Shown here: positions 1 to 12,081 of the stretch, one piece after another
How positions within the stretch are numbered: position 1 is the first letter of the stretch
Layout: each line of letters starts with the position of its first letter
Virus record (IMG/VR): IMGVR_UViG_3300025687_000178
Coordinates: 1-33,018 of that record
DNA: 33,018 nucleotides
Direction: 5' to 3' (one strand)
Source: a virus
Made by a program: the position numbers and the translations under genes
The notes under the pieces: generated by a model
What the model was told of the DNA's origin: nothing
The model's input: the letters and a program-made list of their open reading frames with translations, nothing else
Database searches by the model: none

Positions 1-966
1 ATCACAATCATTACATCTATTAGTTCTTGCATACGGTGTTCCATCTTTCCTTACTTTTCGTATATACCCATTACCTTTACAGGTATTGCATTGCTTTGCC
101 TTCTGCTTGTACAAGACATCACTGCTGTTACGTACTTGATACTTGTAGTCCTGATCGTCCATGTAGTCATCAAACAGATCTGCCCAATGCTTTTTGCTCT
201 TGGGTTTGCGGCTGTAAATAACCCAAGATAATTGCTCTGGGCTATTGAGATTGATAGGTGTGTCACCCATCAGTGTACGTATTTGTGCATCAAGGCTGGC
301 TATGAGAGTGTCACGTTCTTGTGTAAACTCTTGCCTAACTTCCTCAAGTACTGACATATCAACAGCAAAGCCACGTTGATAGATACGTGCAAGATGTACA
401 GCAAGCTGATTGGTTAGTCGTATTGTTCCTGCCAGTGTACTACACTCCTCGTACTTCGTCATCAAACGCAAGTACAGTTGTTGTGTTGCCTTTATATCAT
501 CAATGCAGTAGCTCTCTAGCTCTTCATATGGCATGTCACGAACTTGTTTACCAGCCTTCAACCACTCCTTCATGGTGTCTTGTTTCTTGGTGTCAAGTTC
601 GTAACGTTCTGCACATGCCTCAAGAGACAGTGGTTCTTTCTGGCCACGTTGTAGTATGTACTCGCCTAGCATGGTGTCAAAGATAGGTCCATTGTATGTG
701 AACCCAGACTCCCATAACCACAATAGATCATGTGAAGCATTGTGCATGATAAGTAGAGGAGCACAGTCAAGAAGGTCTTGTACTATCTGTGCTCCCCTGT
801 CGGTGGGTGGATGCTCTGCGTGATCAAATGTCACAATAGTTTCGTTACCAAGATCATCTAGCATACCCACCATGACTAATGTATTCTCAGGTTCGAATGG
901 ATCAAGGTGTTTCTTGCCATCCCGTTTGGTCACAGTGTTTTCTACGTCGAGTGTTAAGTGTTTCAT
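1..966 (-). CDS. polA: DNA polymerase I family (family A), N-terminal part, cut by window edge
   Basis: The replicative phage DNA polymerase; only the first 322 residues are in the window. The N-terminal 3'-5' exonuclease domain is clear: ExoI D7/E9 in LDVEN, ExoII N76..D80 in HNASHD, ExoIII Y153..D157 in YCIDDIKAT. The segment INLNSPEQLSWVI (about 238-250) is the usual link before the palm. At 293-300 comes CNTCKGNG, an exact CxxCxGxG DnaJ zinc motif, followed by a second Cys pair at 318/321, so the zinc module lies between exonuclease and polymerase domains. This is known from the SAR116 phage HMO-2011. The polymerase motifs A, B and C lie beyond the window. The start ATG overlaps the stop of the upstream 55-aa gene (ATGA), suggesting translational coupling. 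I translated this gene by eye from the minus strand. Confidence 0.93.
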   Translation of the reverse strand, partial: MKHLTLDVENTVTKRDGKKHLDPFEPENTLVMVGMLDDLGNETIVTFDHAEHPPTDRGAQIVQDLLDCAPLLIMHNASHDLLWLWESGFTYNGPIFDTMLGEYILQRGQKEPLSLEACAERYELDTKKQDTMKEWLKAGKQVRDMPYEELESYCIDDIKATQQLYLRLMTKYEECSTLAGTIRLTNQLAVHLARIYQRGFAVDMSVLEEVRQEFTQERDTLIASLDAQIRTLMGDTPINLNSPEQLSWVIYSRKPKSKKHWADLFDDYMDDQDYKYQVRNSSDVLYKQKAKQCNTCKGNGYIRKVRKDGTPYARTNRCNDCD

Positions 967-1130
967 TCGTCTAGTATTACCTCATTTGCATACAACCTGT
1001 CAAGGTGTTCGTGAAACTCTTTGTCATTAGCATACATTTCCATTGCAGTTACTGCTTCTTTCAATGTTAGATTAGTACGCCTCATTGCTGAGTGTAATAT
1101 AATCTCTTCTGTCATAGTTGCTGTATTCAT
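963..1130 (-). CDS. Small hypothetical protein (55 aa)
   Basis: A small acidic, probably helical protein of unknown function. A start 15 bases further upstream (1145) is possible, but I chose the ATG at 1130 because GAGGAG sits 7 bases before it. That ribosome site contains the stop codon of the preceding zinc-ribbon gene. Its own stop overlaps the polymerase start by four bases (ATGA), so it probably couples translation between the two genes. Confidence 0.7.
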   Translation of the reverse strand: MNTATMTEEIILHSAMRRTNLTLKEAVTAMEMYANDKEFHEHLDRLYANEVILDE

Positions 1131-1134
1131 ATTT

Positions 1135-1311
1135 TCACTCCTCATTCAAACAAAACTCACAGAAATCACCTGTAGATACATTTCCGCAAGACACACATTT
1201 ACTTTCACCATACATATTCTGTTTGGCTCGTTCTTTTGCCCTCTGTCTTTCTTCCTTAGTCATAGGACGTATCTCTCTTAGAGGTATACCGAATGTATAC
1301 TTACCTGTCAT
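1135..1311 (-). CDS. Small zinc-ribbon-like protein (58 aa)
   Basis: Short protein with two Cys pairs, C39-x2-C42 and C51-x2-C54 (CVSCG and CEFC), in its last third, the pattern of a small zinc ribbon. The N-terminal part is basic and Lys/Arg/Glu-rich (about residues 18-32) and probably helical. It starts with an ATG overlapping the stop of the 102-aa gene (ATGA) and ends inside the ribosome site of the next gene. Its place between ThyX and DNA polymerase suggests a replication or nucleic-acid accessory role; that is inference from position only. Confidence 0.72.
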   Translation of the reverse strand: MTGKYTFGIPLREIRPMTKEERQRAKERAKQNMYGESKCVSCGNVSTGDFCEFCLNEE

Positions 1312-1616
1312 GCAAGGTTCTCCGATTTATCTTGGCTATCCTGTGACCATTCAGAAGATACTGGTGGGTTGTTCTCACCATAGTTTCCGTACTCGTCAAA
1401 CCTCTCATCTTTGTTGTACCTGATGTGATCCTCAATGAAGTCATACACTACACCCATGTCGAGCTTGGCTGCTGCACAGTACATCACTAGCTTCAAGCCT
1501 TCCTCTGTGAGTAGGCCACGGGCATGTGCATCCATATGAAACTTAAATGTTGCACCACCATCCTCATGTTCCTCTACGGTTTCAACACCAATAATACCTG
1601 CATCTTTACTCATCAT
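1308..1616 (-). CDS. Hypothetical protein (102 aa) between thyX and polymerase
   Basis: No family recognised. Acidic protein with a probable helical middle (about residues 34-68) and a hydrophilic Asn/Ser/Asp-rich tail. It overlaps the thyX stop through ATGATGA. Two adjacent ATGs (1616 and 1613) are possible starts; the second is better spaced from GGAG in the end of thyX. Its stop overlaps the zinc-ribbon gene start. The unbroken chain of four-base overlaps indicates one co-transcribed unit. Confidence 0.75.
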   Translation of the reverse strand: MMSKDAGIIGVETVEEHEDGGATFKFHMDAHARGLLTEEGLKLVMYCAAAKLDMGVVYDFIEDHIRYNKDERFDEYGNYGENNPPVSSEWSQDSQDKSENLA

Positions 1617-2281
1617 CCTCTCCCTTTACATAATGCCATCCATGACACAGGGAATAGCTTGTGCATACTCATACTAATCTGATTGGCTACCTCTTGTGTT
1701 TCCTGTTGTGTGTCAGAAGCACATCTTAGCAGACACATATCAGCAAATGCATCTAAGCTACCTGACCAGTACCACTCCGTGACCATGCTCTGTGGCAGTA
1801 CCATACGTGCTTGCTCTGGGCAGACACCATCCTGTAACATCTCTGCATAAGCCCTTTTAGCCCATAGAATGGCCTTGGCTTCAGACCTCATAGTAGAACT
1901 AGATGGGACCATTGCATCACCTGACCCTTGCTTTTTGTCTTCTGCCCTACGTCTGTATGTAGCAGGTTCATGGAAGTCTGGTATTATGTCCACATACCTA
2001 CGGCTAATCTCATTCCAACGTAGGAATTTATGTTTCACAAGTTGACGTGCCACAAAGATGGGAGCCTTGACATGGAAGCTGGCAAAGCAATGTCCGAATG
2101 GAGACATGTGTTTGTGCTCTGCCAGATACCAGATCAGCTTCTGATCCTTCTTCTCAAGCTCCCATTTACCTAGAACATTATCGACGCAGACCATGCCTGA
2201 TCGTTTGCCAAATGACACACGGGCAGCATTTACTACTGTAATGTCACTGCCCATGTGATCCATCAGTGTTGCTTCTATCAT
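1613..2281 (-). CDS. thyX: FAD-dependent thymidylate synthase ThyX
   Basis: Makes dTMP from dUMP using methylene-tetrahydrofolate and reduced FAD, supplying thymidylate for phage replication. The 222-aa length is normal for ThyX. The signature RHR-x7-S is present in variant form as KHK at 83-85 with S93, continuing EISRRY. Other family features include the late ARMVLPQS segment (158-165), which resembles the usual ARxxLP stretch with the substrate arginine at 159, and a Gln/Glu-rich C-terminal helix. Replacement of both signature arginines by lysine is unusual against the textbook motif but conservative in charge. It overlaps the helicase stop by four bases. Confidence 0.93.
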   Translation of the reverse strand: MIEATLMDHMGSDITVVNAARVSFGKRSGMVCVDNVLGKWELEKKDQKLIWYLAEHKHMSPFGHCFASFHVKAPIFVARQLVKHKFLRWNEISRRYVDIIPDFHEPATYRRRAEDKKQGSGDAMVPSSSTMRSEAKAILWAKRAYAEMLQDGVCPEQARMVLPQSMVTEWYWSGSLDAFADMCLLRCASDTQQETQEVANQISMSMHKLFPVSWMALCKGRG

Positions 2282-3501
2282 GCTGTATACCTCGCTATTT
2301 TGTATTCAAGTTCAGTGTGTACAATACCGTGCCACCCTGTGAGTTTGTTTTTCACAATGTTAATGTGACGTTGGTTGTCTTCTTCATCCTGTCCTTCAAC
2401 AGTAGCATTCTTAGAGATCATAATCATCAGATCAGCTTCTGCTGCCTTACCTGTACGACTACCCTCCATCATGGATTGGTTCAATACAACCTTGCCTTCT
2501 GCTTCAGCAGACAGTTGGGACATGTAGAATACTGCACAGTTGTACATCTTTGCAATCTGTCTGGCATGTATTGCATTAGCCTTGAGTGCCTCATCGGGAC
2601 GTGCAAAGCCACCTGTCTTGGCGAACTTGTCACCCATGTCAAGGATTACAATGTCAGGTTTGTATGACTTGCATACAGACTCCACCCAATTCATGTCACG
2701 GCCTGTCGCATCCTTAAACATTACGTTACCACGTATACGATCAAAGATTTCGGCTGCCGTAATCTTGTACTTACTAATCTGGAACTTGTCCATACCAGTA
2801 GCGGCAGTGATGTATCTATGTGCGACACGGTGATACCCTTCCTCATTACACAACACTATGCACCTTGCACCTTGCCATGCAAATCCATTAGGACCAGCCA
2901 CAAGAGAGGCATGGAATGATGTCTTACCTGTATTTGGTCTTGCGCCAACCTCAATCAGGTGTCCTGCATTGACGCCCTCTACCTTACGTACAAGAGTAGG
3001 TATGTTGAATACCCACTGAGACTCAAGGTCAGTCATTGCAAGTATCGTATCAAGACTAGTGTCTTCCCATGTAACTCTTAGGTTGGGAGTGAAGTCATCG
3101 CCATACTGTTCAAGCAGCATACGTAAAGGCTCAAGACTAGACTTGTCACCATTCACATAATCAAAGCCAAGGTTGGCAATGTCCTCACCAACTACCTGTT
3201 GGAACAGTTTGGACAACACTTCCTGTGCTACGTCACCGCCCATAGGCTTCTCACGTTTCACCTGAGAGAACAGGTGTGAGTATGCCTGTTTCTGTGCAGT
3301 TGTAAGTGTAGGATTGTTAGCCATGAACAAGGCTTCAATCTCATCTGGTGTTACGGTACGTTCGTAACGGGTCATAGCAGTGTCAATGGACTGCTTGATC
3401 TTACGTACATCCTTGCTGAATAGTCTATCAGGGCAACGAGCACCACGATGTTCATCGTAAAACTCTTTGTCCATCAAGCTACGTATGAGGGATAATTCCA
3501 T
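2278..3501 (-). CDS. Replicative DNA helicase, DnaB / T7 gp4 type
   Basis: Hexameric RecA-fold helicase that unwinds the fork, probably with the separate primase encoded just upstream. Walker A is GARPNTGKT at 186-194; Walker B is DIVILD at 283-288; MSQLS at 327-331 matches the DnaB H3/Q-loop region; KNKLTGWHG at 384-392 matches the C-terminal Arg/Lys-finger stretch of this family. The first 150 residues are a helical N-terminal region without a zinc-binding primase domain, so helicase and primase are separate polypeptides here, unlike T7 gp4. AGGAG lies 6 bases before the ATG. Confidence 0.92.
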   Translation of the reverse strand: MELSLIRSLMDKEFYDEHRGARCPDRLFSKDVRKIKQSIDTAMTRYERTVTPDEIEALFMANNPTLTTAQKQAYSHLFSQVKREKPMGGDVAQEVLSKLFQQVVGEDIANLGFDYVNGDKSSLEPLRMLLEQYGDDFTPNLRVTWEDTSLDTILAMTDLESQWVFNIPTLVRKVEGVNAGHLIEVGARPNTGKTSFHASLVAGPNGFAWQGARCIVLCNEEGYHRVAHRYITAATGMDKFQISKYKITAAEIFDRIRGNVMFKDATGRDMNWVESVCKSYKPDIVILDMGDKFAKTGGFARPDEALKANAIHARQIAKMYNCAVFYMSQLSAEAEGKVVLNQSMMEGSRTGKAAEADLMIMISKNATVEGQDEEDNQRHINIVKNKLTGWHGIVHTELEYKIARYTA

Positions 3502-3502
3502 T

Positions 3503-4291
3503 TCATTCTCCTAGCGTTGTCAGTTTCATCATGTCGGTTGGATTCCTATACTTGAGGTCATCCAGTAGGTATAACACACGTATCTGTTTTACGTGTGATC
3601 GTAATTCTTTTGCAATTGCCAAGGTCTTTGGTAGTGCATCGGGGTCTAGGGCAATCACTGCTGTTGAGAACTGTGACAAGTACTGCTTGTGTCCCTCTGA
3701 TAATGATGTACCCAACACTGCTACCCCGACATATACATCATCATCTTGGCATCCAGTTCCGTCTGTCGCACCTACAATAGCTGCACTCACACAGTCCTCA
3801 ACAACTACAGCAGTTTTACCACATCCGTAGGTGTATGGCAAGCTACTATTTCCATATCTTTTCCACTTGGGAAGTTTCTTTGACAGGCTACGACCCGTAG
3901 CATCCACCATTATATTACCCTGCATAATAGGGAACACCACACGATGTTCCTTTACATCGTACAGTAGACCCAATGCCTTGGGGTCAAGCCCCCACTGGTC
4001 ACAGAACTTATTGATTGCATCATAGTCCTGCACAATCCAATCAGGTTTAGAAAAACCTACAGAGTGTGTTTCCTGTGCAACACTGCCAAGGGATTTACGT
4101 ATGTCATCTGCCGATAGATGCACACGTTTACCCCCAGACACAGAGCACCCAGCTTTGTAACAGTTCCACACTAATGATCCCATGTTGTTAGTAACAGTAA
4201 ACGTTTTGTATCCATTACACTCAGGACAATTCATACGTTTAGTTTCACCATTACTAAGTGATAGATCATTAATTATATTTCTTACACTCAT
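3503..4291 (-). CDS. DNA primase (zinc-binding plus TOPRIM)
   Basis: Makes RNA primers for lagging-strand synthesis. The N-terminal zinc site has C22-x2-C25 (CPEC) and C44/C49 (NCYKAGC), counting from the ATG at 4291. The TOPRIM half has VVVEDCVSAAIVG with the catalytic Glu, and ALDPDA with the DxD pair. At 262 aa it is a compact stand-alone primase similar to the N-terminal half of T7 gp4. A GTG three codons upstream (4300) is also open, but the ATG has AGAAAG at good spacing. The start lies inside the 3' end of the integrase gene, so the two are co-transcribed. Confidence 0.9.
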   Translation of the reverse strand: MSVRNIINDLSLSNGETKRMNCPECNGYKTFTVTNNMGSLVWNCYKAGCSVSGGKRVHLSADDIRKSLGSVAQETHSVGFSKPDWIVQDYDAINKFCDQWGLDPKALGLLYDVKEHRVVFPIMQGNIMVDATGRSLSKKLPKWKRYGNSSLPYTYGCGKTAVVVEDCVSAAIVGATDGTGCQDDDVYVGVAVLGTSLSEGHKQYLSQFSTAVIALDPDALPKTLAIAKELRSHVKQIRVLYLLDDLKYRNPTDMMKLTTLGE

Positions 4292-5411
4292 ATGTATCAC
4301 TTTCTATGTTGTTCGTTTCACTCAAGGATACAGATACATTACGCATTGTCAATGCATTATTTGCACTGTCATACGAATGCTTTAGATAAGGCTTCACTGA
4401 AGCCATGTGATTGTGTCCTGTAACAGACATGATCTGGTTTATTGGTACACCTTTCTGATCCATCTGTGTTACCCCTGTTCTACGTAAGTCCATAAGACGT
4501 AAGTCTTCTGACAATCCAGCTAGTCGCATGACCCGTCTACCTACTTTAGACAGACGTTCCATAGCATACGGATTGTATACACCAGACACAGGTCTAGGGT
4601 GTGGTGCCACATACTCTTGAAATCCAAAGTCATTACGTTGTGCATTTAACATCTCTGTCAAGTCATCAGAGATGGGTAGTGTGACCTCTGCCCTGCGTTT
4701 ACTTTGCTCAAGAGATAGCTTTTGCCTATGCAGATCAATGCTCTCCCACTTGAGATTACGCATGTCCCCAAGACGTTGGCACCATTCGTATGCCATCTGT
4801 ACGATCAGCCCAATGTTTCTGTATTCAAACTCAGAGTATGCAACATCAAGGAACTTGATCACATCACCGTGTGTCCATGTAACCTTGCGTTGCTTGGGGT
4901 TCTTACGTTTGATGTTGGCCCAAGGATTCTGCGTAGCATGTTCCATCTGTATGGCATAGTTGTACACTCTGCTTGCACAGGTAGCCGCATGATTAGCAAA
5001 GCTGACGCCACGTTTGACCCAATCCTCATAGGCTTGCTTGGCAATCTTGGTTGTAACCTTGTCATACCTACGCCATCCCATAGTCTGATGCAGTATGGTC
5101 AGGAAATATCTGTAGTCAACTTTAGTTGTATCACGTAACATATTGAAATCATTAGACTGATAGTAATAGTTGATCAGATCTGTGACCTTGCTGCTTGGCT
5201 TTATACGTATGACAGACAGTTGTTCCTCTCTCCATTTGTCAATGTTATCATTGTGTTGTTTAACTATCTTACGAACTTGCTTTAAGTCTGACCCATAAGA
5301 CTCTCTTTTTACTACACCTTCATCGACTAGTATCTGTGGTGGATTGAAACGGTAGGAGATGTCACCCGAAGATGACACCTGTTCCTGTACATAACGTGGT
5401 AGCCTTGGCAA
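4269..5411 (-). CDS. int: Tyrosine recombinase (phage integrase), TTG start
   Basis: Site-specific recombinase expected to join phage attP to a host attB. An N-terminal arm-type region (1-65) and core-binding domain (about 73-165) are followed by the catalytic domain: R213 in CQRLGD, K238 in the beta-hairpin, R310 in MDLRRT, H333 in TGHNH, and nucleophile Y342 in VKPYLKHS. Spacing is close to that of lambda Int. The box II position that is normally His (HDLRRT) is Met307, an unusual change at a conserved active-site residue. The start is TTG immediately after the DUF932 stop, supported by GGAGG 8 bases upstream; no ATG occurs until residue 91. It sits within the replication operon, with no repressor beside it. 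Confidence 0.92.
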   Translation of the reverse strand: MPRLPRYVQEQVSSSGDISYRFNPPQILVDEGVVKRESYGSDLKQVRKIVKQHNDNIDKWREEQLSVIRIKPSSKVTDLINYYYQSNDFNMLRDTTKVDYRYFLTILHQTMGWRRYDKVTTKIAKQAYEDWVKRGVSFANHAATCASRVYNYAIQMEHATQNPWANIKRKNPKQRKVTWTHGDVIKFLDVAYSEFEYRNIGLIVQMAYEWCQRLGDMRNLKWESIDLHRQKLSLEQSKRRAEVTLPISDDLTEMLNAQRNDFGFQEYVAPHPRPVSGVYNPYAMERLSKVGRRVMRLAGLSEDLRLMDLRRTGVTQMDQKGVPINQIMSVTGHNHMASVKPYLKHSYDSANNALTMRNVSVSLSETNNIESDTYECKKYN

Positions 5412-6257
5412 TTACGCAGCCTCCAACTGAATGAAACGATTATCACTGACCCACTTGCTCACCTCTTGCTCACGACTGAACATGCTGATAGCCTGTGTAT
5501 CATTACCAGTGTTACGTAGGTTGAACCCGTTACGTTCATCAGCGTAGCTGGCATAGTTTGTGAAGGCAGAATACAATGCCCACTTGTTGTGACCACGTGT
5601 GCTTGCCTCTGCACAGTACAGGCTGTACATCTTCTCTGCCTTACGACGAGATGAAATCATCTCCTCAAGCAAAGACTTGATGTCCACATACTTTGTGGAA
5701 GTCTGCGCCCACACCTGCATCTTGGCAGTCTCTTCGTAGAAGTCACGCCGTGCACGTACCAGTTCCTTGATGAAACCGTCAAGTGTAAAGTTGGATGTGT
5801 TCTTCTTGCGTACCTTATCGTACTCACCACGGATCAGACCGTTGGTACAGAAGAAATCAATAGCACCAAAGAATGCTTGGTTGCTGCACGATCCATCAAT
5901 ACCATGCAATGATATGATACGATTACCCAACGTAGTTGTGTGCTTGTCGGTATTAATCTCTACCTGCATGTCAGGTAGTGTGATGTCTAGCATAGACCAT
6001 GCACCACCACGTGCAGACCGCCACTTAAAACTAGCATTCGCCATCTCTGATGGGTCAAGGTTCTCTGTGATTGTGTCAAAGACACCACGGTAGAAGTCAC
6101 CGTGTGATGCACAGGTAAACTTGTCACCCACAACACCAAGGTATTCACCTGTGTCTCCATTGATGACATACTTTTTGTCCTTAACTTTGGTAGGTTCAAA
6201 CTCTACATTAAAATCAAGGTAGTGTGGTACGTCAAAGTTTGTAATATCAAATGGCAT
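5412..6257 (-). CDS. DUF932 family phage/plasmid protein
   Basis: A 281-aa member of the DUF932 family, common in phages and plasmids; its biochemical role is unknown. Recognisable pieces are YVINGDTGEYLGVVGDKF near the N-terminus, the central GNRIISLHGIDGS and FFCTNGLIRG segments, and a helical C-terminal half. The ATG at 6257 is chosen over one at 6287 because AGGAGA lies just before it. It is the gene directly upstream of the integrase and contains the integrase's ribosome site at its end. The 80-base gap upstream is the largest gap in this part of the operon and might hold an internal promoter, but no convincing -35/-10 pair is visible. Confidence 0.88.
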   Translation of the reverse strand: MPFDITNFDVPHYLDFNVEFEPTKVKDKKYVINGDTGEYLGVVGDKFTCASHGDFYRGVFDTITENLDPSEMANASFKWRSARGGAWSMLDITLPDMQVEINTDKHTTTLGNRIISLHGIDGSCSNQAFFGAIDFFCTNGLIRGEYDKVRKKNTSNFTLDGFIKELVRARRDFYEETAKMQVWAQTSTKYVDIKSLLEEMISSRRKAEKMYSLYCAEASTRGHNKWALYSAFTNYASYADERNGFNLRNTGNDTQAISMFSREQEVSKWVSDNRFIQLEAA

Positions 6258-6337
6258 ATTTGTCTCCTTTTCATTTGTTATTGGCAACTGATGCCCCGTT
6301 ATATCATACCCATCACCCCTATACTAGGAACGATAAG

Positions 6338-6730
6338 CTATTTGTAGTACTTGTGTGTCTTTAATGACACAGTCTTAGTCAGTGCCTTTGCCCAAAAGGG
6401 TTTTACATAATGGGCATGGTAGTGTGTCGCACCGCCTGTGTTATCAGGCACAGTCCCATCAAGCACATCCTGTGCAATCAACTGAGACAATGCCCATGCT
6501 TTCTTTTCATATGGGGTGTCAGACTTACCGTCACAGTACCAACTGAACTGGCACTTGTGTTTGCCCTTACTATATCCCTGCTTCACGACAGAACATACAT
6601 CGTCAGGCCATCGGTCATGTGCCACACGATTTAACACTACGTGTGACACTGCATACCCTTCAGACATAGGACTGCCCCGTGTCTCGTGATATATGTTGAG
6701 TGCAAGGCACATCAAAGCTGTACTAAGCAT
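6338..6730 (-). CDS. Cell wall hydrolase, SleB type
   Basis: Peptidoglycan-cleaving enzyme of the SleB / Hydrolase_2 family. Seen: LNIYHETRGSPMSEGYAVSH at 11-30, with E16 as the likely catalytic glutamate; CQFSWYCDG in the middle; and the C-terminal GATHYHA, PFWA and HKYYK blocks typical of the family. At 130 aa it is essentially the bare domain, with no obvious signal peptide beyond a short hydrophobic N-terminus. AAGGA lies 6 bases before the ATG. It is encoded in the early replication strand, far from the late lysis cassette at 15.8-17.1 kb, which has its own M15 peptidase. It may therefore act at another stage or be a second endolysin; that is inference. Confidence 0.88.
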   Translation of the reverse strand: MLSTALMCLALNIYHETRGSPMSEGYAVSHVVLNRVAHDRWPDDVCSVVKQGYSKGKHKCQFSWYCDGKSDTPYEKKAWALSQLIAQDVLDGTVPDNTGGATHYHAHYVKPFWAKALTKTVSLKTHKYYK

Positions 6731-6733
6731 AGC

Positions 6734-6850
6734 TTATCCTTTCGGTGGTGGCAGTCCAGACCAATCGTCACATGGATCATCATGCGGCATTGGTGCTGGC
6801 TTCTGTGTATGGTCTGTGAACTGATATGAATATACGTGTTCCATCTGCAT
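6734..6850 (-). CDS. Possible small gene (38 aa) before the SleB hydrolase
   Basis: An open frame overlapping the 3' end of the 117-aa gene. It begins at an ATG preceded by AGGG and ends with TAA only three bases before the SleB start codon, inside its ribosome site, which is the spacing expected for a coupled operon gene. The end, CDDWSGLPPPKG, is Pro/Gly-rich. It is too short for family assignment and could be a chance frame. Confidence 0.35.
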   Translation of the reverse strand: MQMEHVYSYQFTDHTQKPAPMPHDDPCDDWSGLPPPKG

Positions 6851-7133
6851 CCCTACTGTTTGATATGAGGCGTACTATGTCACCTGCATCGGCATATTGC
6901 TTTAGCTTTTGTATGCTAATCATCTTATCGCCACGGCCTGACCGTGTGAAAAAGTTTACCTTTGCTTCAGTACCATCAATGTATTCACCCGTCACAGTGA
7001 ATTTGTTTTCATTGAAGAATGGATCTGTGTAGTCCATATCAAATTCATCTAACAAAAACTGCCTTACAGTTTTGTTGGCATTGATCTCTGACTTGCTCAA
7101 CATACGTTGAGTTAGTTTTATTCTAGCTTCCAT
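6780..7133 (-). CDS. Hypothetical protein (117 aa)
   Basis: Family not recognised. Mixed alpha/beta protein with an N-terminal helical part (1-35) followed by beta-rich segments such as FTVTGEYIDGTEAKVNFFTR and TRIFISVHRPY. AGGAG lies 8 bases before the ATG. It follows the 78-aa gene by 11 bases in the same direction and belongs to the early operon. Confidence 0.75.
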   Translation of the reverse strand: MEARIKLTQRMLSKSEINANKTVRQFLLDEFDMDYTDPFFNENKFTVTGEYIDGTEAKVNFFTRSGRGDKMISIQKLKQYADAGDIVRLISNSRDADGTRIFISVHRPYTEASTNAA

Positions 7134-7144
7134 AGCTGTATCTC

Positions 7145-7381
7145 CTAGTGTAATTGCATTGGGGCTGGGAATATATACCCATAGTCATCGTATTCTTCTG
7201 CGTCATACTCAGTGCATGAGACAAACTCTACCTCACACTCTGGGTGTACGTGCTTTGCCATCAACACTGCCATAGTACAGGCAGTATGCCAATCGACAAT
7301 GGCTGGGAAAGTATCATCAAGTGTGATGGTACTATCCTGCCCGTCAATCTCAAGCACAATCTCGTATGCTTTAATCGTCAC
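7145..7381 (-). CDS. Hypothetical acidic protein (78 aa), GTG start
   Basis: Small acidic protein rich in Asp/Glu/Tyr near its end (AEEYDDYGY); function unknown. The frame is open back to 7474, but that would overlap the 92-aa gene by about 100 bases. The GTG at 7381 has AAGGAG 9 bases upstream and gives an 11-base overlap with the preceding gene, in line with the rest of the operon, so I chose it. Confidence 0.68.
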   Translation of the reverse strand: MTIKAYEIVLEIDGQDSTITLDDTFPAIVDWHTACTMAVLMAKHVHPECEVEFVSCTEYDAEEYDDYGYIFPAPMQLH

Positions 7382-7649
7382 AGGTACATGCTCCTTTACA
7401 TAACTCAGGGAAAGCACCACGTAGTTTGTACTCAAGTGTAGACAGTCTGCGTACATGACGCATGTCAAGGTCAAAGCACTCCCTGATGTGGCTTTCCATA
7501 TCGTCCATAAGATTCCACACTTTGGTGATTACCTCACGTTGATCTTGTGTCAAAGACAAAGCTGCATCATTAAGCACCTTTTCCATTTCTTCACGTTCTT
7601 GTTGCCACTTGCTGCGTCTATCCACAATTTCTTCTGGTGTTATTGTCAT
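7371..7649 (-). CDS. Hypothetical helical protein (92 aa)
   Basis: Highly charged, probably helical protein (long Glu/Arg/Lys-rich stretches from 10 to 80) with a Cys-containing tail (ELCKGACTCDD). No family recognised. AAGGAG lies 7 bases before the ATG, and the ATG overlaps the stop of the 135-aa gene (ATGA). Confidence 0.75.
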   Translation of the reverse strand: MTITPEEIVDRRSKWQQEREEMEKVLNDAALSLTQDQREVITKVWNLMDDMESHIRECFDLDMRHVRRLSTLEYKLRGAFPELCKGACTCDD

Positions 7650-8053
7650 GGTCTTGCTCCTTCTGCATATAGGTATGGTCTATCTCTCCAATCGCCAACC
7701 ACCATACTTGGTTGCAACTGTAGGAATGCACGTTTAGCTGTACGTACAGGTGTCGTGTCATGCACATCAACGAATGTGTCAAACTTGTATGGGTTGTATG
7801 ACACAAGTGTGTAGTCCAGATATTTTGGATGATAGTCTGGATCAAAGTCATCAAAGTATGTAGCTTCACCACGTACAAAGGCATGAACATTCTTCTTGCC
7901 CTCACGCAATACACGTTCACGTCCTGCTTGACGTACTACAAACTCAGGATTACGAATGTGTACCTTGTCAGTGTGCAGTATTACCCTGCCCGTTCTAGCT
8001 GAACGGACAGACCATACGTATTTGTGTAGGTTGAAGTATACTTCTACTCTCAT
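7646..8053 (-). CDS. Hypothetical protein (135 aa)
   Basis: Basic, aromatic-rich protein with beta-strand-like segments at the N-terminus (VEVYFNLHKYVWSVRS, then GRVILHTDKVHI) and a Tyr-rich middle. The start resembles small phage proteins that describe a strand-rich N-terminal sheet, but I cannot name a family. It overlaps its neighbours on both sides by four bases (ATGA). Confidence 0.75.
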   Translation of the reverse strand: MRVEVYFNLHKYVWSVRSARTGRVILHTDKVHIRNPEFVVRQAGRERVLREGKKNVHAFVRGEATYFDDFDPDYHPKYLDYTLVSYNPYKFDTFVDVHDTTPVRTAKRAFLQLQPSMVVGDWRDRPYLYAEGARP

Positions 8054-8250
8054 GTTAACATGATCTCCTCTAAAGCAGCCAAAAAAGACTTGGTTGAATC
8101 TACAAATCGTATAGGATCTTTATCATATCCATCCGTTATGTCAAGCATTTCGGAGCACACAATTTTGCCTGATTCATCCTTGTGTTGAGCAATAGATATA
8201 ACTCTATCACCATGATGCAGAACAATATTATTCATATTTATTCCGTGCAT
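8050..8250 (-). CDS. Hypothetical protein (66 aa)
   Basis: Small protein, unknown function. Two starts fit: the ATG at 8250 with AAAGG 8 bases upstream, or the ATG at 8235 preceded by GGAAT. The first overlaps the upstream membrane-protein gene by 23 bases, the second by 8. The stop overlaps the 135-aa gene start. Confidence 0.68.
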   Translation of the reverse strand: MHGINMNNIVLHHGDRVISIAQHKDESGKIVCSEMLDITDGYDKDPIRFVDSTKSFLAALEEIMLT

Positions 8251-8422
8251 TGGATCTACCTTTCGTATATTTAAGTAGGCATACAGCTATATACATTTGT
8301 ATATACACAGACCATATGCCTATGGAGTTTACATTGTCTTTATCGTAGCCCATGCTTACCAGTATACCAACGGTCACTAGCATACAGACATAGGCTACAA
8401 TAGGTGTCAGTATTAAGAACAC
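8228..8422 (-). CDS. Small membrane protein (64 aa), GTG start
   Basis: Two hydrophobic segments (about residues 2-24 and 33-50) joined by a short polar loop, with a basic C-terminus (KYTKGRSNARNK), suggest a two-pass inner-membrane protein. The GTG start overlaps the end of the helix-turn-helix gene by 10 bases and has only a weak ribosome site, so it depends on coupling. Role unknown; superinfection exclusion or host membrane remodelling would be guesses. Confidence 0.65.
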   Translation of the reverse strand: MFLILTPIVAYVCMLVTVGILVSMGYDKDNVNSIGIWSVYIQMYIAVCLLKYTKGRSNARNKYE

Positions 8423-8754
8423 TGTGCTAACTTGTTGTCAATATCCTTTAGCCATGTGGCTGCTTGTTTGCGTTGACGTAACAGATCGGCACGTTCCATA
8501 TTGTACTTGTTCTTGATAAGACCTTTGGTCTTGAGAACTTGCACACGATATGCGATACGATTTGGGTATTCATTCAATGCCTCGGCAATCTGTGCCATTG
8601 TCATTTCACCCCAAAACTCAAGGATCACCTCATCAATTACACAGTAATTGTATGTGTAAGACACGGCTTTCTTCATGTGAAACGTATGCTCTGCATACAG
8701 TTCTGGGAAAGCTGATTTTACTACGGGTGCGATGTTTTCATTTGAGTTTGTCAT
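8413..8754 (-). CDS. Helix-turn-helix DNA-binding protein (113 aa)
   Basis: Residues about 44-82 (ILEFWGEMTMAQIAEALNEY followed by NRIAYRVQVLKTKGLI) read as a helix-turn-helix or winged-helix unit: a helix, a turn at MTMAQIAE, and a recognition helix before VQVLKTKGLI. The C-terminal 30 residues form a charged helix that could dimerise. AAGGAG lies 8 bases before the ATG. It is the clearest regulator candidate in the early block, and therefore a candidate to read the palindromic sites at 8.9-12.1 kb, though nothing in the sequence ties it to them. Confidence 0.75.
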   Translation of the reverse strand: MTNSNENIAPVVKSAFPELYAEHTFHMKKAVSYTYNYCVIDEVILEFWGEMTMAQIAEALNEYPNRIAYRVQVLKTKGLIKNKYNMERADLLRQRKQAATWLKDIDNKLAQCS

Positions 8755-8766
8755 TGTGATAGCTCC

Positions 8767-8934
8767 TTATGCTACTGATTTACAAGTGCCACTGGCACGG
8801 CGAAGGTTGATTTTGTTTTGACGTGCGATCTTACGTTCACGTTTCCAATCGTCACGTTTGGATTTAGGTTTATCAGACTGTCCAACATTGGACGGTTTTG
8901 AAAACTTAATAAAGTTTTGCATCTCGTATTTCAT
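8767..8934 (-). CDS. Small basic protein (55 aa) carrying a palindrome-encoded PSNVGQSD
   Basis: Lys/Arg-rich small protein, probably nucleic-acid binding by charge. Residues 14-21 (PSNVGQSD) are encoded by one of the seven GTCCAATGTTGGACA palindromes; the same eight residues occur in the 194-aa protein at 11.4 kb through a 26-base identical stretch. The ATG at 8934 overlaps the 51-aa gene by 29 bases; its stop precedes the ribosome site of the helix-turn-helix gene. I translated it by eye. Confidence 0.65.
   Translation of the reverse strand: MKYEMQNFIKFSKPSNVGQSDKPKSKRDDWKRERKIARQNKINLRRASGTCKSVA
8880..8893 (-). repeat. Palindrome copy 1 of 7 (in the 55-aa gene)
   Basis: GTCCAATGTTGGAC on the minus strand, inside coding sequence. 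The surrounding 26 bases (8872-8897) are identical to those of copy 6 at 11384-11409, and both are read in the same frame as PSNVGQSD. Confidence 0.95.
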
Positions 8935-9061
8935 TTTGCTTTTCCTTCTTACTAGGTTTGCGTTTGTTGCCCTTCTTAGGCGGCACTACCTGTGGGCTTT
9001 TGCGTTGCTGCAACAATGCTTTCGCCACAGGGTTCACAATGCCCACAGGTCTGTTTTTCAT
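8906..9061 (-). CDS. Small basic protein (51 aa)
   Basis: Very basic protein (VVPPKKGNKRKPSKKEKQ in the middle), unknown function. The ATG at 9061 overlaps the stop of the 65-aa gene (ATGA), the standard junction in this operon, which is the main reason to believe it. Too short for family assignment. Confidence 0.6.
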   Translation of the reverse strand: MKNRPVGIVNPVAKALLQQRKSPQVVPPKKGNKRKPSKKEKQNEIRDAKLY

Positions 9062-9255
9062 TGTTCTACATCCTCGTCTGTTACTTGCATGTTATCTATA
9101 AACTCTTGCACCTCATCGCTTGATGCACTTTTGCGATAGTATGTCCATAGGTCATCAGTTACAATTTGTACAAGGTCATCTATATCTAGGTCATCGACAT
9201 AACGATCAATGGCTAGTTCAAGTTTATCATAGTCAGTATTTGTAATGGGTTTCAT
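9058..9255 (-). CDS. Small acidic protein (65 aa)
   Basis: Strongly acidic (Asp/Glu-rich throughout, for example YVDDLDIDDLVQIVTDDL), probably all-helical. Function unknown; small acidic early phage proteins are often DNA mimics or inhibitors of host enzymes, but nothing here shows that specifically. AAGGAG lies 6 bases before the ATG, overlapping the end of the 229-aa gene. Confidence 0.72.
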   Translation of the reverse strand: MKPITNTDYDKLELAIDRYVDDLDIDDLVQIVTDDLWTYYRKSASSDEVQEFIDNMQVTDEDVEQ

Positions 9256-9256
9256 A

Positions 9257-9946
9257 TTACACTCCTTGTGCTACTGTGTTTGCTTTACGTTTTGTTGTCC
9301 CATGTGCAGGGAAACCAATGATTGCATCACGGTTTCTTGCACACAGTTGGCATGTGGCACATGACACATTGTCACGTATAGTGGCAGGACATACAATCAC
9401 CTTGCGACCTTTAGGTGTGGTGGTGTTAGTTGTTTGTGCCTCTGGCAATACTGTCGCAACTGGCCCAATGTCTAGGTCATACAGTGCATCGGCATGTTTG
9501 ACATTGTTAGCTGACAGATTGACCACGAAACCTTTCTCATTCATCCGTTTGACTACCTGTGCATTATGCTTGTCAGTCAATACAGGATAGTGAGTGTAGG
9601 TGAAACCACGTTTGCCACGGTTGGCATCAGCAAGCTGATCGTTTGCATCAGCATCCAAACGTTTGCCATCACCTGCAAGATCACCTGCTTGGTTGTGTCT
9701 CCACACTTGCCCATCTTTGAAAGATGAAACATTGGCAATGAATGTTGACCAATTATCACCACGTTCACCACGTGTCACTTTGGCCCAATGTATAGCAAGT
9801 GGGCCACCATTTGCATAGCAACCACCCTCGTTTGCATTGTTGAATGGGCAAGCATCAGGACATGTATCTGCTGATGTGGTTGTGACAGGTATCTTGCCAA
9901 CCTTACGGTTGTTAGATTTGAATGTAGTGTGTACTGTGTAAGTCAC
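9257..9946 (-). CDS. Cys-rich phage protein of unknown function (229 aa)
   Basis: Contains two Cys clusters: C29-x3-C33 and C43 (TCPDACPF, then GGCYANGG) near the N-terminus, and C186, C196, C199, C202 (VCPA, SCATCQLC) near the C-terminus, followed by IIGFPAHGTTKRK. The seven cysteines suggest two metal sites or an Fe-S cluster. I believe it belongs to a widespread uncharacterised phage family, but I cannot name it with certainty. The GTG start is supported by CGGAG 8 bases upstream, inside the palindrome cassette shared with two other genes. Confidence 0.75.
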   Translation of the reverse strand: MTYTVHTTFKSNNRKVGKIPVTTTSADTCPDACPFNNANEGGCYANGGPLAIHWAKVTRGERGDNWSTFIANVSSFKDGQVWRHNQAGDLAGDGKRLDADANDQLADANRGKRGFTYTHYPVLTDKHNAQVVKRMNEKGFVVNLSANNVKHADALYDLDIGPVATVLPEAQTTNTTTPKGRKVIVCPATIRDNVSCATCQLCARNRDAIIGFPAHGTTKRKANTVAQGV

Positions 9947-9966
9947 TTGACTAACTCCGTTAAAGT

Positions 9967-9980
9967 GTCCAACATTGGAC
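9967..9980 (-). repeat. Palindrome copy 2 of 7 (5' cassette of the 229-aa gene)
   Basis: GTCCAATGTTGGAC on the minus strand, followed by ACTTTAACGGAGTTA, whose CGGAG is the ribosome site of the next gene. Lies in the 42-base gap between genes. Confidence 0.95.
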
Positions 9981-9988
9981 GGTTTGAA

Positions 9989-10192
9989 TTAAGAACCAAA
10001 GGTTTCGTTCCATTCGGCAGGTGTGATACCTGTCATTATGAACTCACGTTGGTCAGCTGTAAGCTGTGGCATGGCATCTTGGATCAGCATACCATCAACC
10101 CAAGCATCCAATTGTGCTTGTGTGATTGGCAGATACCAATGGCTTGTGTTGCCAGTTAAACGAGAGGTACGAACGATTTTTCTAAGTTTCAT
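9989..10192 (-). CDS. Hypothetical protein (67 aa) behind a palindrome cassette
   Basis: Small protein with a basic N-terminus (MKLRKIVRTSR) and an acidic helical remainder. The frame is open further upstream, through the palindrome, but the ATG at 10192 has CGGAG 9 bases ahead, exactly as in the two sister cassettes, so I chose it. Function unknown. Confidence 0.7.
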   Translation of the reverse strand: MKLRKIVRTSRLTGNTSHWYLPITQAQLDAWVDGMLIQDAMPQLTADQREFIMTGITPAEWNETFGS

Positions 10193-10213
10193 TTTGGATA
10201 ACTCCGTTAAAGT

Positions 10214-10227
10214 GTCCAACATTGGAC
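10214..10227 (-). repeat. Palindrome copy 3 of 7 (5' cassette of the 67-aa gene)
   Basis: Same core and same downstream ACTTTAACGGAGTTA as copy 2, again ending in the ribosome site of the following gene. Confidence 0.95.
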
Positions 10228-10234
10228 GTTTCAA

Positions 10235-10531
10235 TTAAGCCCACATACTGTGGACGTTAGCTTCCTCAAGCCACCGCATTGCAGTGTCAATGTCGGGAGC
10301 ACCAGCTTCCATGCAAGCATTGATGGACGCATCTTCATCTGCACGTTCCTGTGCCAAATCCTCTGCGATCCAATCGTAATAACGATTAGTCCATTCTTCC
10401 ATCTCTTGAATGGCACCTTCAATGCCAAGCTGACTATCCCAATAGTCATATGCAAGCATAGGACGAATACCGTGATACTCTTTATAAGCATCACTGTAAG
10501 CCTGTACAGCTTGGTCAAATTTGCTAGTCAT
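10235..10531 (-). CDS. Hypothetical acidic protein (98 aa)
   Basis: Acidic, Trp/Tyr-rich helical protein (YDYWDSQLGIEGAIQEMEEW and similar), unknown function. The ATG at 10531 overlaps the region just after the 63-aa gene and has GGAAAG upstream; the frame extends to 10564 but that would place the start inside the preceding gene. Ends just before the palindrome at 10214. Confidence 0.72.
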   Translation of the reverse strand: MTSKFDQAVQAYSDAYKEYHGIRPMLAYDYWDSQLGIEGAIQEMEEWTNRYYDWIAEDLAQERADEDASINACMEAGAPDIDTAMRWLEEANVHSMWA

Positions 10532-10532
10532 T

Positions 10533-10724
10533 TTAGCTTTCCTTTCCCATGTATGGTGGCACATCTTGCAGATGAATAGTTTTTACAATACATTTGTCAC
10601 CAGTTTCATGTTGTGCCTCTAATGCGGATTGCAAGGCATCATCATAACAAGCAAACCTGCTGTTATAATCAGAGTAGACGTAGGGATCACCATCGTCATA
10701 AGCAATTACGATGTACAGTTCCAT
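10533..10724 (-). CDS. Hypothetical protein (63 aa) behind a palindrome cassette
   Basis: Begins MELYIVIAYDDGDPYVYSDY, with beta-strand character, and is acidic overall; function unknown. CGGAG lies 6 bases before the ATG, within the third copy of the palindrome cassette (palindrome at 10745-10758). One base separates its stop from the start of the next gene. Confidence 0.72.
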   Translation of the reverse strand: MELYIVIAYDDGDPYVYSDYNSRFACYDDALQSALEAQHETGDKCIVKTIHLQDVPPYMGKES

Positions 10725-10744
10725 ATTAAACTCCGTTTAAAAGT

Positions 10745-10758
10745 GTCCAACATTGGAC
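10745..10758 (-). repeat. Palindrome copy 4 of 7 (5' cassette of the 63-aa gene)
   Basis: Same core, followed by ACTTTTAAACGGAGTTT, a slightly longer version of the cassettes of copies 2 and 3. Lies in the 116-base gap that also holds the 10790-10830 hairpin. Confidence 0.95.
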
Positions 10759-10789
10759 GGTTTCAGTTTCAGTGTTAATGTCTATACAT

Positions 10790-10830
10790 GTTATATAACA
10801 CTTTCACTAAAGATTCAAGTGTTATATAAC
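10790..10830 (-). repeat. Strong hairpin, 14-bp perfect stem, in the early operon
   Basis: GTTATATAACACTT (10790-10803) and its exact complement (10817-10830) flank a 13-base loop. It lies between the 39-aa membrane-protein gene and the 63-aa gene on the transcribed strand. No U-run follows on the minus strand, so it is not a standard terminator; an mRNA processing site, a partial terminator or an operator are possible. Confidence 0.85.
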
Positions 10831-10840
10831 TGTAAGACAA

Positions 10841-10960
10841 TTAATTGTACACCAAAGGCAGCAAAGCAATCAGCATTGCAGTTGCAGTCCAGCCTACACC
10901 TAACAGAAACCAGCCTATGGCTCTGTTACGGTTCAACCGTTTAATCTCACGTCTAGTCAT
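10841..10960 (-). CDS. Single-pass membrane micro-protein (39 aa)
   Basis: MTRREIKRLNRNRAIG followed by a hydrophobic stretch of about 22 residues (WFLLGVGWTATAMLIALLPLVY) reads as a basic cytoplasmic end plus one transmembrane helix. The ATG overlaps the stop of the 93-aa gene by 8 bases and has GGGGA upstream. It ends 11 bases before the strong hairpin at 10790-10830. Translated by eye; function unknown. Confidence 0.6.
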   Translation of the reverse strand: MTRREIKRLNRNRAIGWFLLGVGWTATAMLIALLPLVYN

Positions 10961-11234
10961 TGCTTACGTCCCCCGTGCCTACGGCACTTTTCCAACCACT
11001 ATCGTAGATAAGTGTAGGTGATTGCTCGAACATCTGTTCGGGTGTTTTTGTGTTGGCGATCAAAGTGTCCAATGTTGGACAAATCTGATCTTCGATCATA
11101 TGGCGGTTTGCTTCCTGTGATGCCAATTCATAGAATTGAGCAGCAGCAGCATCAAGCTGCCACTGTTCAATGTCACGTTTAGTGCTAGGTAATAAATACC
11201 TAACACTAGTTTCATGTATGTGGCGGCTGATCAT
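10953..11234 (-). CDS. Hypothetical protein (93 aa) containing a palindrome copy
   Basis: No family recognised; mostly helical. The start overlaps the stop of the 194-aa gene (ATGA). One copy of the palindrome lies inside it, in the opposite orientation to most others, and is read as CPTLDT. So the same DNA site is accommodated in a different reading frame from the PSNVGQSD copies. Confidence 0.72.
   Translation of the reverse strand: MISRHIHETSVRYLLPSTKRDIEQWQLDAAAAQFYELASQEANRHMIEDQICPTLDTLIANTKTPEQMFEQSPTLIYDSGWKSAVGTGDVSND
11067..11080 (+). repeat. Palindrome copy 5 of 7 (inside the 93-aa gene)
   Basis: GTCCAATGTTGGAC on the plus strand, in reverse orientation to copies 1-4. It is followed by AAATCTGAT, related to the AGTCTGAT after copies 1 and 6. 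Confidence 0.95.
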
Positions 11235-11815
11235 GCAGCCACCTTTGCTTCCGTAGGAAGTGACGCCATCAGATCCTCAATGATCTTTTCAAGATCAAGG
11301 CCATTGAGTTTGGCTTGGTTAATGATGGTATTCACCATCACCTTGTGAGTGATCTTGGGACGTTCAGCTTTAGCTGGTGCCTCATCAGACTGTCCAACAT
11401 TGGACGGTTCAGCCTTTGGCTGTTCATTCTGTGGTTCGTCACTGCCTTTGGCAGCTTTACGCATTGCAGCTTGTAAAGCTGTAAGAGAGGAACCTTTGAA
11501 ACCAGAGGTTTCGATGAAGGCACGAACCTCTGTTTCGTTTTCAACGAACCACAGAGCCTCTGAACGACGACGACGATCAATGCAGTGAATACCGTAGGTA
11601 GTCAGTGTTTGACGAGAGATTTGACCAGAGTCAAGGGATGACTGAGCTTTCAGCTTCTGCATCAGCTTTCCAAGCCGTGTGTCGAAGCCATTGGCCTTGA
11701 TGGTCTGTTTCAGACTGTTAGTCTGTCTCCAGATTGACCCAAGGGCTTTGCCCTCTTTGATGTCGGCATCAATTGAAGTTCCTTCAACTTTGGTGATTTT
11801 CGCTGATTTTGCCAT
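11231..11815 (-). CDS. First gene of the early operon, hypothetical (194 aa)
   Basis: Lys-rich protein with three parts: an N-terminal helical region (1-75) with a basic patch at IDRRRR (79-84), a middle ending in a Gln/Pro/Ala linker (about 124-150), and a C-terminal helical domain (151-190). The linker holds PSNVGQSD, encoded by the palindrome at 11392-11405. Its position as the first leftward gene next to the control region suggests an early regulator or a DNA-binding initiator; that is inference. AAAGGAG lies 7 bases before the ATG, and the 5' leader starts with a 92-base inverted repeat. Confidence 0.75.
   Translation of the reverse strand: MAKSAKITKVEGTSIDADIKEGKALGSIWRQTNSLKQTIKANGFDTRLGKLMQKLKAQSSLDSGQISRQTLTTYGIHCIDRRRRSEALWFVENETEVRAFIETSGFKGSSLTALQAAMRKAAKGSDEPQNEQPKAEPSNVGQSDEAPAKAERPKITHKVMVNTIINQAKLNGLDLEKIIEDLMASLPTEAKVAA
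11392..11405 (-). repeat. Palindrome copy 6 of 7 (inside the 194-aa gene)
   Basis: GTCCAATGTTGGAC on the minus strand. It encodes PSNVGQS in the linker of the first early protein and shares 26 identical bases with copy 1. Confidence 0.95.
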
Positions 11816-11829
11816 TGGATGGCTCCTTT

Positions 11830-11921
11830 CTCTATCTCTAAGTGTTACATAAGAGAGTTTTATATCTCTCTCACCCTAAAGGGAGAGATAGAAAACTATC
11901 TGTAACACTAGAGAGATAGAG
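11830..11921. repeat. Long inverted repeat abutting the first early gene's ribosome site
   Basis: Arms of about 40 bases. The outer part pairs CTCTATCTCT (11830-11839) with 11912-11921, then AGTGTTACA (11841-11849) with 11901-11909; the inner part pairs GAGAGTTTTATATCTCTC with a partner at 16 of 18 positions, leaving a loop of about 8 bases. It touches the AAAGGAG ribosome site of the 194-aa gene, so a leftward transcript starting upstream would carry the hairpin in its leader. Confidence 0.85.
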
Positions 11922-11931
11922 TAGGTGATTT

Positions 11932-12029
11932 CAGCCTCATGTGATCCTCTGCCCATGCCGTTTCACGTGTGACTGCAAAAATATATTTCATATATATTTT
12001 GAAGTTCGTGTGCGAAACTCGTGAGGCTG
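11932..12029. repeat. Second inverted repeat with AT-rich centre
   Basis: CAGCCTCA (11932-11939) pairs with TGAGGCTG (12022-12029). Inside, a near-symmetric AAAATATAT...ATATATTTT stretch lies at about 11976-12000, with partly matching GTTTC/GAAAC flanks. The AT-rich core is the type of sequence that melts easily. Confidence 0.6.
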
Positions 12030-12046
12030 GTTCACTGTTTGTTCTC

Positions 12047-12066
12047 ACTGTCCAATGTTGGACAGT
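12047..12066 (+). repeat. Palindrome copy 7 of 7, perfect 20-bp form
   Basis: ACTGTCCAATGTTGGACAGT: the core at 12050-12063 extended to 9-base perfect arms around a 2-base centre. It lies in the non-coding control region and is directly followed by another palindrome (CTACCCATAGGGTAG, 12067-12081). Confidence 0.95.
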
Positions 12067-12081
12067 CTACCCATAGGGTAG
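12067..12081. repeat. 15-bp palindrome next to copy 7
   Basis: CTACCC-ATA-GGGTAG, perfect 6-base arms around 3 bases, directly joined to the 20-bp palindrome at 12047-12066. Confidence 0.85.

Follow-up and report, generated by a model that had tools for sequence, protein, structure and literature searches.

The window analysed here, the whole 33,018-nucleotide stretch of IMG/VR record IMGVR_UViG_3300025687_000178, is a fragment of an HMO-2011-type phage, with a terminase 84–89% identical to those of CRP-345, CRP-1 and HMO-2011. Its early region carries a palindromic 15-mer, GTCCAATGTTGGACA, in seven exact copies between 8.88 and 12.06 kb and nowhere else in the record, and the first gene of its leftward early cluster encodes a 194-residue protein, g194, which we propose to be the protein that binds these sites. 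The count confirms the original prediction, made from the sequence of the window, which had listed the same seven cores and held that chance could not explain them: in 100 shuffles of the window, with matches counted at up to three mismatches, the mean was 1.55 and none reached the observed number, 14. The prediction had also placed the copies in leaders, inside genes and in the control region, and this is how they divide, with three in gene leaders (9967, 10214 and 10745), three within open reading frames (ORFs; 8880, 11067 and 11392) and one (12050) in the divergent control region, which separates the leftward early genes from the rightward late ones. The TG-centred strand is the minus strand at five sites and the plus strand at two (11067 and 12050), and the spacing is about 250–1090 bp, not tandem. 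The seven sites are:

8880..8893, minus strand: site 1, within a 55-residue ORF; encodes PSNVGQ
9967..9980, minus strand: site 2, in the leader of the DUF7227 gene, ending 20 nt before its GTG start
10214..10227, minus strand: site 3, in the leader of a 67-residue gene (start 10192)
10745..10758, minus strand: site 4, in the leader of a 63-residue gene (start 10724)
11067..11080, plus strand: site 5, within a 93-residue gene; similarly placed in several relatives, e.g. L019, L057 and L118
11392..11405, minus strand: site 6, within g194; encodes PSNVGQ (about residues 137–142) of a predicted disordered linker
12050..12063, plus strand: site 7, proposed operator in the control region; the g194 start is about 235 nt downstream

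The palindrome is shared family-wide by HMO-2011 subgroup-I-like marine phages, each genome having one palindrome in 3–10 copies. Many contigs with 3–9 clustered copies turned up in exact scans of IMG/VR; the copies share the core GTCCAA-YR-TTGGAC and have flanks of two styles, AAACC-site-ACTTT and TAA-site-TTA. The centre is TG/CA or CG, and rarely GG, so that the TG centre described earlier as never varying is constant among the copies of the window but not among relatives. In 13 complete phage genomes, GTCCR-N4-YGGAC palindromes were found only in CRP-345, CRP-1 and HMO-2011 (5–6 each), and in ten uncultivated records of 47–60 kb the true sites are likewise gathered in a single cluster. On the two points where the original prediction had exposed itself, the sites are thus conserved in relatives and do not occur at background frequency throughout the genome. 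We found no mention of them in the literature searched.

Genomes differ in the class of site that they carry: GTCCAA-YR-TTGGAC (A-type) in the window, GTCCGA-YR-TCGGAC (G-type) in others, and a third class, GTCCGACAGCGGAC, in HMO-2011. Set side by side, the site sequences are GTCCAATGTTGGAC, GTCCGATGTCGGAC and GTCCGACAGCGGAC. The copies are nearly invariant (599 exact vs 12 with one mismatch). The classes differ among genomes, and the copies within one genome thus tend to switch class jointly, with few mixed loci. Some sites in the main clade with Ser112 in g194 that is labelled A-type are half-and-half hybrids (GTCCGACGTTGGAC).

The original prediction considered the copies to be binding sites for one dimeric protein, and named two candidate partners. 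These, together with the helix proposed below, are located as follows:

11231..11815, minus strand: g194 (194 residues), which heads the leftward early cluster; proposed site-binding protein, from co-occurrence and co-variation
11450..11485, minus strand: proposed recognition helix of g194, codons 111–122; residues 112, 116, 119 and 120 co-vary with the site
8413..8754, minus strand: HTH113 (113 residues), winged-helix-like, with a weak helix-turn-helix match; tested as partner and not favoured

Homologues of g194 are present in 54 of 66 multi-site loci, and the site is present at least once in each of the 199 loci with such a homologue, many of these loci having been found through the site itself. 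An unbiased measure of co-occurrence is given by 79 new loci gathered through g194 similarity alone, every one of which carries the site cluster. Among them, 71 have two or more GTCCAAYRTTGGAC (364 copies over 753 kb, with about 0.04 expected), and the other eight have no GTCCAAYRTTGGAC and carry 3–6 GTCCGAYRTCGGAC each, in the same layout. By tblastn, g194 matched CRP-345 and CRP-1 and no other phage record, and HMO-2011 gp74 is a distant homologue at the same position (hhalign 98.7%, E 4e-16). The viral library search returned one clear match, S4S2E1 (205 residues), which is taken to be this gp74, judged from protein length, and one weak match, A0A6J5NRU3. The library searches gave no Pfam, PHROG family or ParB match.

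Co-variation between protein and site was followed on FastTree trees, after loci overlapping in their source contigs had been reduced to 136 distinct proteins. The g194 tree used for the class test left out residues 112 and 119 as well as the linker encoded by the in-gene site, and the recognition-helix codons do not overlap that site. On this tree, position 5 of the half-site has switched between A and G many times. Residue 112 is Thr in 92/97 A-type, Ser in 21/23 G-type and Lys in 11/12 H-type proteins, and the Thr/Ser alternation tracks the class in 11.9 of 13 independent pairs on average, with none in the opposite direction (median p 0.0005). When 153 g194 columns were ranked (median score 1.3), the top four were 112, 116, 119 and 120, all on helix 111–122 of the AlphaFold model; the chance of the four falling within a 12-residue helix is about 2e-5, as calculated after the result was known. 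In A-type proteins these residues are mostly T-A-R-K or T-K-R-D, and the pair Ser112 and Lys116 occurs in 21/23 G-type and in 0/97 A-type proteins. The model also has a helix at 94–104 and a short turn before helix 111–122, an arrangement that looks like a helix-turn-helix.

The same comparison bears on whether the sites might be bound by another phage protein such as HTH113, or by a host protein, with g194 nearby by coincidence. HTH113 has its weak helix-turn-helix match and is common in site-bearing loci (32/66), though less so than g194, and when the two proteins are compared over the same loci, the best HTH113 column tracks the class in 2.5 of 5 pairs, vs 4.4 of 5 for g194 residue 112. It was rejected as partner on this weaker co-variation. 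In matched-locus controls with 4–8 independent pairs each (HTH113, DUF932, g109b and g135), the best columns likewise score below g194 residues 112 and 116, and repeated class switching among close relatives speaks against a shared host protein. We consider another binder highly improbable. Of the two candidates named originally, the 194-residue protein co-varies with the site and the helix-turn-helix protein does so much less; binding by one dimeric protein is strongly supported. It is very probable, on this comparative evidence, that g194 binds the palindrome in DNA sequence-specifically, presumably as a dimer, with helix 111–122 reading position 5 of the half-site. We infer dimerisation from the dyad of the site. 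A site whose specificity co-varies with residues 112, 116, 119 and 120 of the partner helix is what is expected of an operator of a sequence-specific DNA-binding regulator.

The sites keep a regular layout around g194. In most of 131 loci a site lies 200–350 nt before the gene (in 110 of the 115 loci with enough sequence, a site is within 600 nt upstream), and 104 of the 131 g194 genes have an in-gene site near codon 130–145, in the predicted disordered linker. Nearly all of the 399 downstream sites are within 4 kb, and 290 of them are in leaders, where the distance from site to start codon has a median of 20 nt and a peak at 19–21 nt. The 243 translatable ORFs behind these leaders belong to 59 unrelated families, and therefore the site travels with the leader, not with a particular gene. 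Short peptides with an in-frame site, like the 55-residue ORF of the window, recur in relatives in FIKxxK-PSNVGQ contexts.

From this layout, and from the conservation, class switching and co-variation, all of which are read from sequence, we infer a mode of action in which the phage probably uses the sites to damp its own early genes. From the control-region site at 12050, g194 would damp early transcription, including that of its own gene, and at leader and in-gene sites it would form a roadblock or locally occlude the starts of early genes. The first ~4 kb of early genes would then be under a silencer limited by feedback, acting in lysogeny or in early shut-off. We consider it likely, with real room for doubt, that the sites are operators of the phage's own g194, an early silencer limited by feedback and acting through roadblocks at dispersed sites. 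The window contains an integrase, as do most subgroup I members (PMC9038755). CRP-3 is able to integrate (PMC6918029); in the 13-genome comparison it is without these sites.

Several observations weigh against early silencing by a DNA-bound dimer. Scanning the control region for consensus promoters gave no more matches than chance, and a promoter at the 12050 site was not identified; g194 is co-directional with the genes proposed as silenced; PDB fold and solved-structure searches returned no DNA-binding match for g194; and a scan of bacterial genome contigs found no g194 relative, and so no sign of lysogeny by these phages or of a classical prophage repressor. In addition, leader sites favour TG in the sense strand (182 TG vs 61 CA), which is not expected of a symmetric dimer on DNA. 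The bias may stem from shared ancestry of the leader cassettes, and the upstream g194 site has no orientation bias.

This bias and the tight spacing to the start codon make control at the RNA level the strongest rival: each leader palindrome would fold into a hairpin immediately 5′ of the ribosome-binding site, and g194 would be a translational repressor, RegA- or coat-protein-like. The few A/G hybrids seen would also fit, as every one of them gives a G-U pairing in the sense strand (16 GT, 0 AC), although these come from only about three lineages. An RNA stem would allow compensatory swaps, yet pairs 1–4 have none in about 600 copies, and position 5 alone changes, jointly with the protein. 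Moreover, sites also lie within genes and 200–350 nt upstream of g194 without preferred orientation, and a 14-mer with a 2-nt centre can form just a 5-bp stem with a tetraloop. We judge action in RNA unlikely, and less likely than action in DNA.

The leader of g194 itself has a structure of its own, about 24 nt downstream of site 7:

11935..12026, minus strand: conserved structured 5′ leader of g194 (GAGTTT...ACTTC-stem-TGCAGT...GAAACGRCA..GCAGAGGAT)

This element is present as one copy in 95 loci, HMO-2011 included, with double compensatory changes in 6 of 14 pairs (36 cells vs 9.9 shuffled); oddly, no one-sided (G-U) intermediates were seen. An Rfam search of the control region gave sub-threshold matches only and no family at threshold. 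Directly before the g194 Shine-Dalgarno sequence, at 11829–11922 (minus strand), lies a long imperfect hairpin (ACTCTATCTC...GAGATAGAG), the shape of which is kept in relatives.

The other early genes that adjoin or contain sites are:

8767..8934, minus strand: 55-residue ORF, unlisted, FIKFSKPSNVGQSDKPKSK...; site 1 in frame
9257..9946, minus strand: DUF7227 early gene (E 1.3e-87), behind site 2
9989..10192, minus strand: 67-residue early gene, behind site 3
10533..10724, minus strand: 63-residue early gene, behind site 4
10953..11234, minus strand: 93-residue early gene, holding site 5

Short perfect hairpins (5-bp arms, loops of 2–5) are 2–3-fold enriched in the early region (window 1–12070; z 4–7) and not in the late region. 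Several Shine-Dalgarno sequences, in relatives too, lie in mini-hairpin loops, for example that of TAAACGGAGTTTA.

Several palindromes over a few kb of early region could also form a dispersed centromere, with g194 as a ParB-like partition or nucleoid protein, for which sites inside genes would pose no problem. The sites keep a fixed distance to the starts of many unrelated genes, however, for which partition has no need, and the ParA ATPase (PF13614) was not found in six complete or near-complete genomes (CRP-345, CRP-1, HMO-2011 and three relatives of 55–57 kb). A ParABS-type centromere was rejected on this result and on the lack of a ParB match for g194, and because no ParA was found we regard partition as very unlikely.

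An in-gene site and an integrase are likewise compatible with sites for a replication initiator or for recombination (arm-type) in place of gene control; in phage lambda, the iterons bound by O lie within its own gene. The spacing, which is not tandem, and the preference for leaders speak against this. A GG-centred copy, GTCCAAGGTTGGAC, does occur in the integrase genes of several relatives (L121 7079–7092 and L123 6868–6881 among others), where it encodes ERLSKVGR. This copy was rejected as a true site: it stays A-type in the G-type phage G008, against the class of that genome, and for this reason, and from what it encodes, it is probably a coding coincidence. We give a role in replication or recombination very little credence.

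With DNA-level silencing by g194 as the preferred reading, the analysis points to a likely regulator together with its sites and recognition helix. It also provides a natural experiment in protein–DNA co-evolution, in which the half-site changes from A to G with Thr to Ser at residue 112, plus Lys116, and it predicts which phages of the group share or escape each other's repression. g194 would found a previously undescribed family, to judge from the lack of a Pfam, PHROG or PDB relative in the libraries searched. For the broadest form of the proposal the balance is even: a new family, perhaps a new fold, silences the early operon via mobile-looking cassettes of operator and ribosome-binding-site leader, and its one-helix code has been switched repeatedly, splitting a marine phage group that is among the most abundant into regulatory, immunity-like specificity classes.

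Among known systems, the plasmid-prophage N15 has scattered inverted repeats that serve as a dispersed centromere. A few inverted repeats spread over the early region are found here as well, but with no ParA/ParB found and with sites in register with start codons. The lambda CI/Cro operators are palindromic, recognised through a helix and clustered at promoters; the sites described here share the palindrome and the helix recognition by a presumed dimer, and differ in being dispersed through the operon.

The original prediction had likened the sites to mycobacteriophage stoperators, which are the closest known parallel, and the likeness holds for the layout, with a control-region site, sites in short intergenic gaps and sites in genes, but not for the form of the site. 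In cluster A (L5/Bxb1) the stoperators are 13-mers without symmetry, to which the repressor binds as a monomer (PMC9283540); they are oriented with transcription and number 20–30 across the genome, whereas here perfect or near-perfect dyads of 14–24 bp occur in 3–10 copies per genome, mostly in the 4 kb that follow the regulator gene and in many cases within ORFs. The N-terminal helix-turn-helix and stoperator domain of cluster A repressors have no counterpart among Pfam, PHROG or PDB fold matches to g194. Both systems seem to rely on a single DNA-binding protein, encoded by the phage and comparable in size (183 residues in L5; PMC9283540, PMC6550527), with a per-genome consensus that shifts with it among relatives. 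Cluster A also has an operator along with many sites in short intergenic gaps, to which the putative operator at 12050 and the leader sites would correspond. Repression with stoperator-like roadblocks is somewhat more likely than not, and the switching of site class with residue 112 of g194 resembles the joint divergence of repressors and sites in cluster A (PMC6550527).

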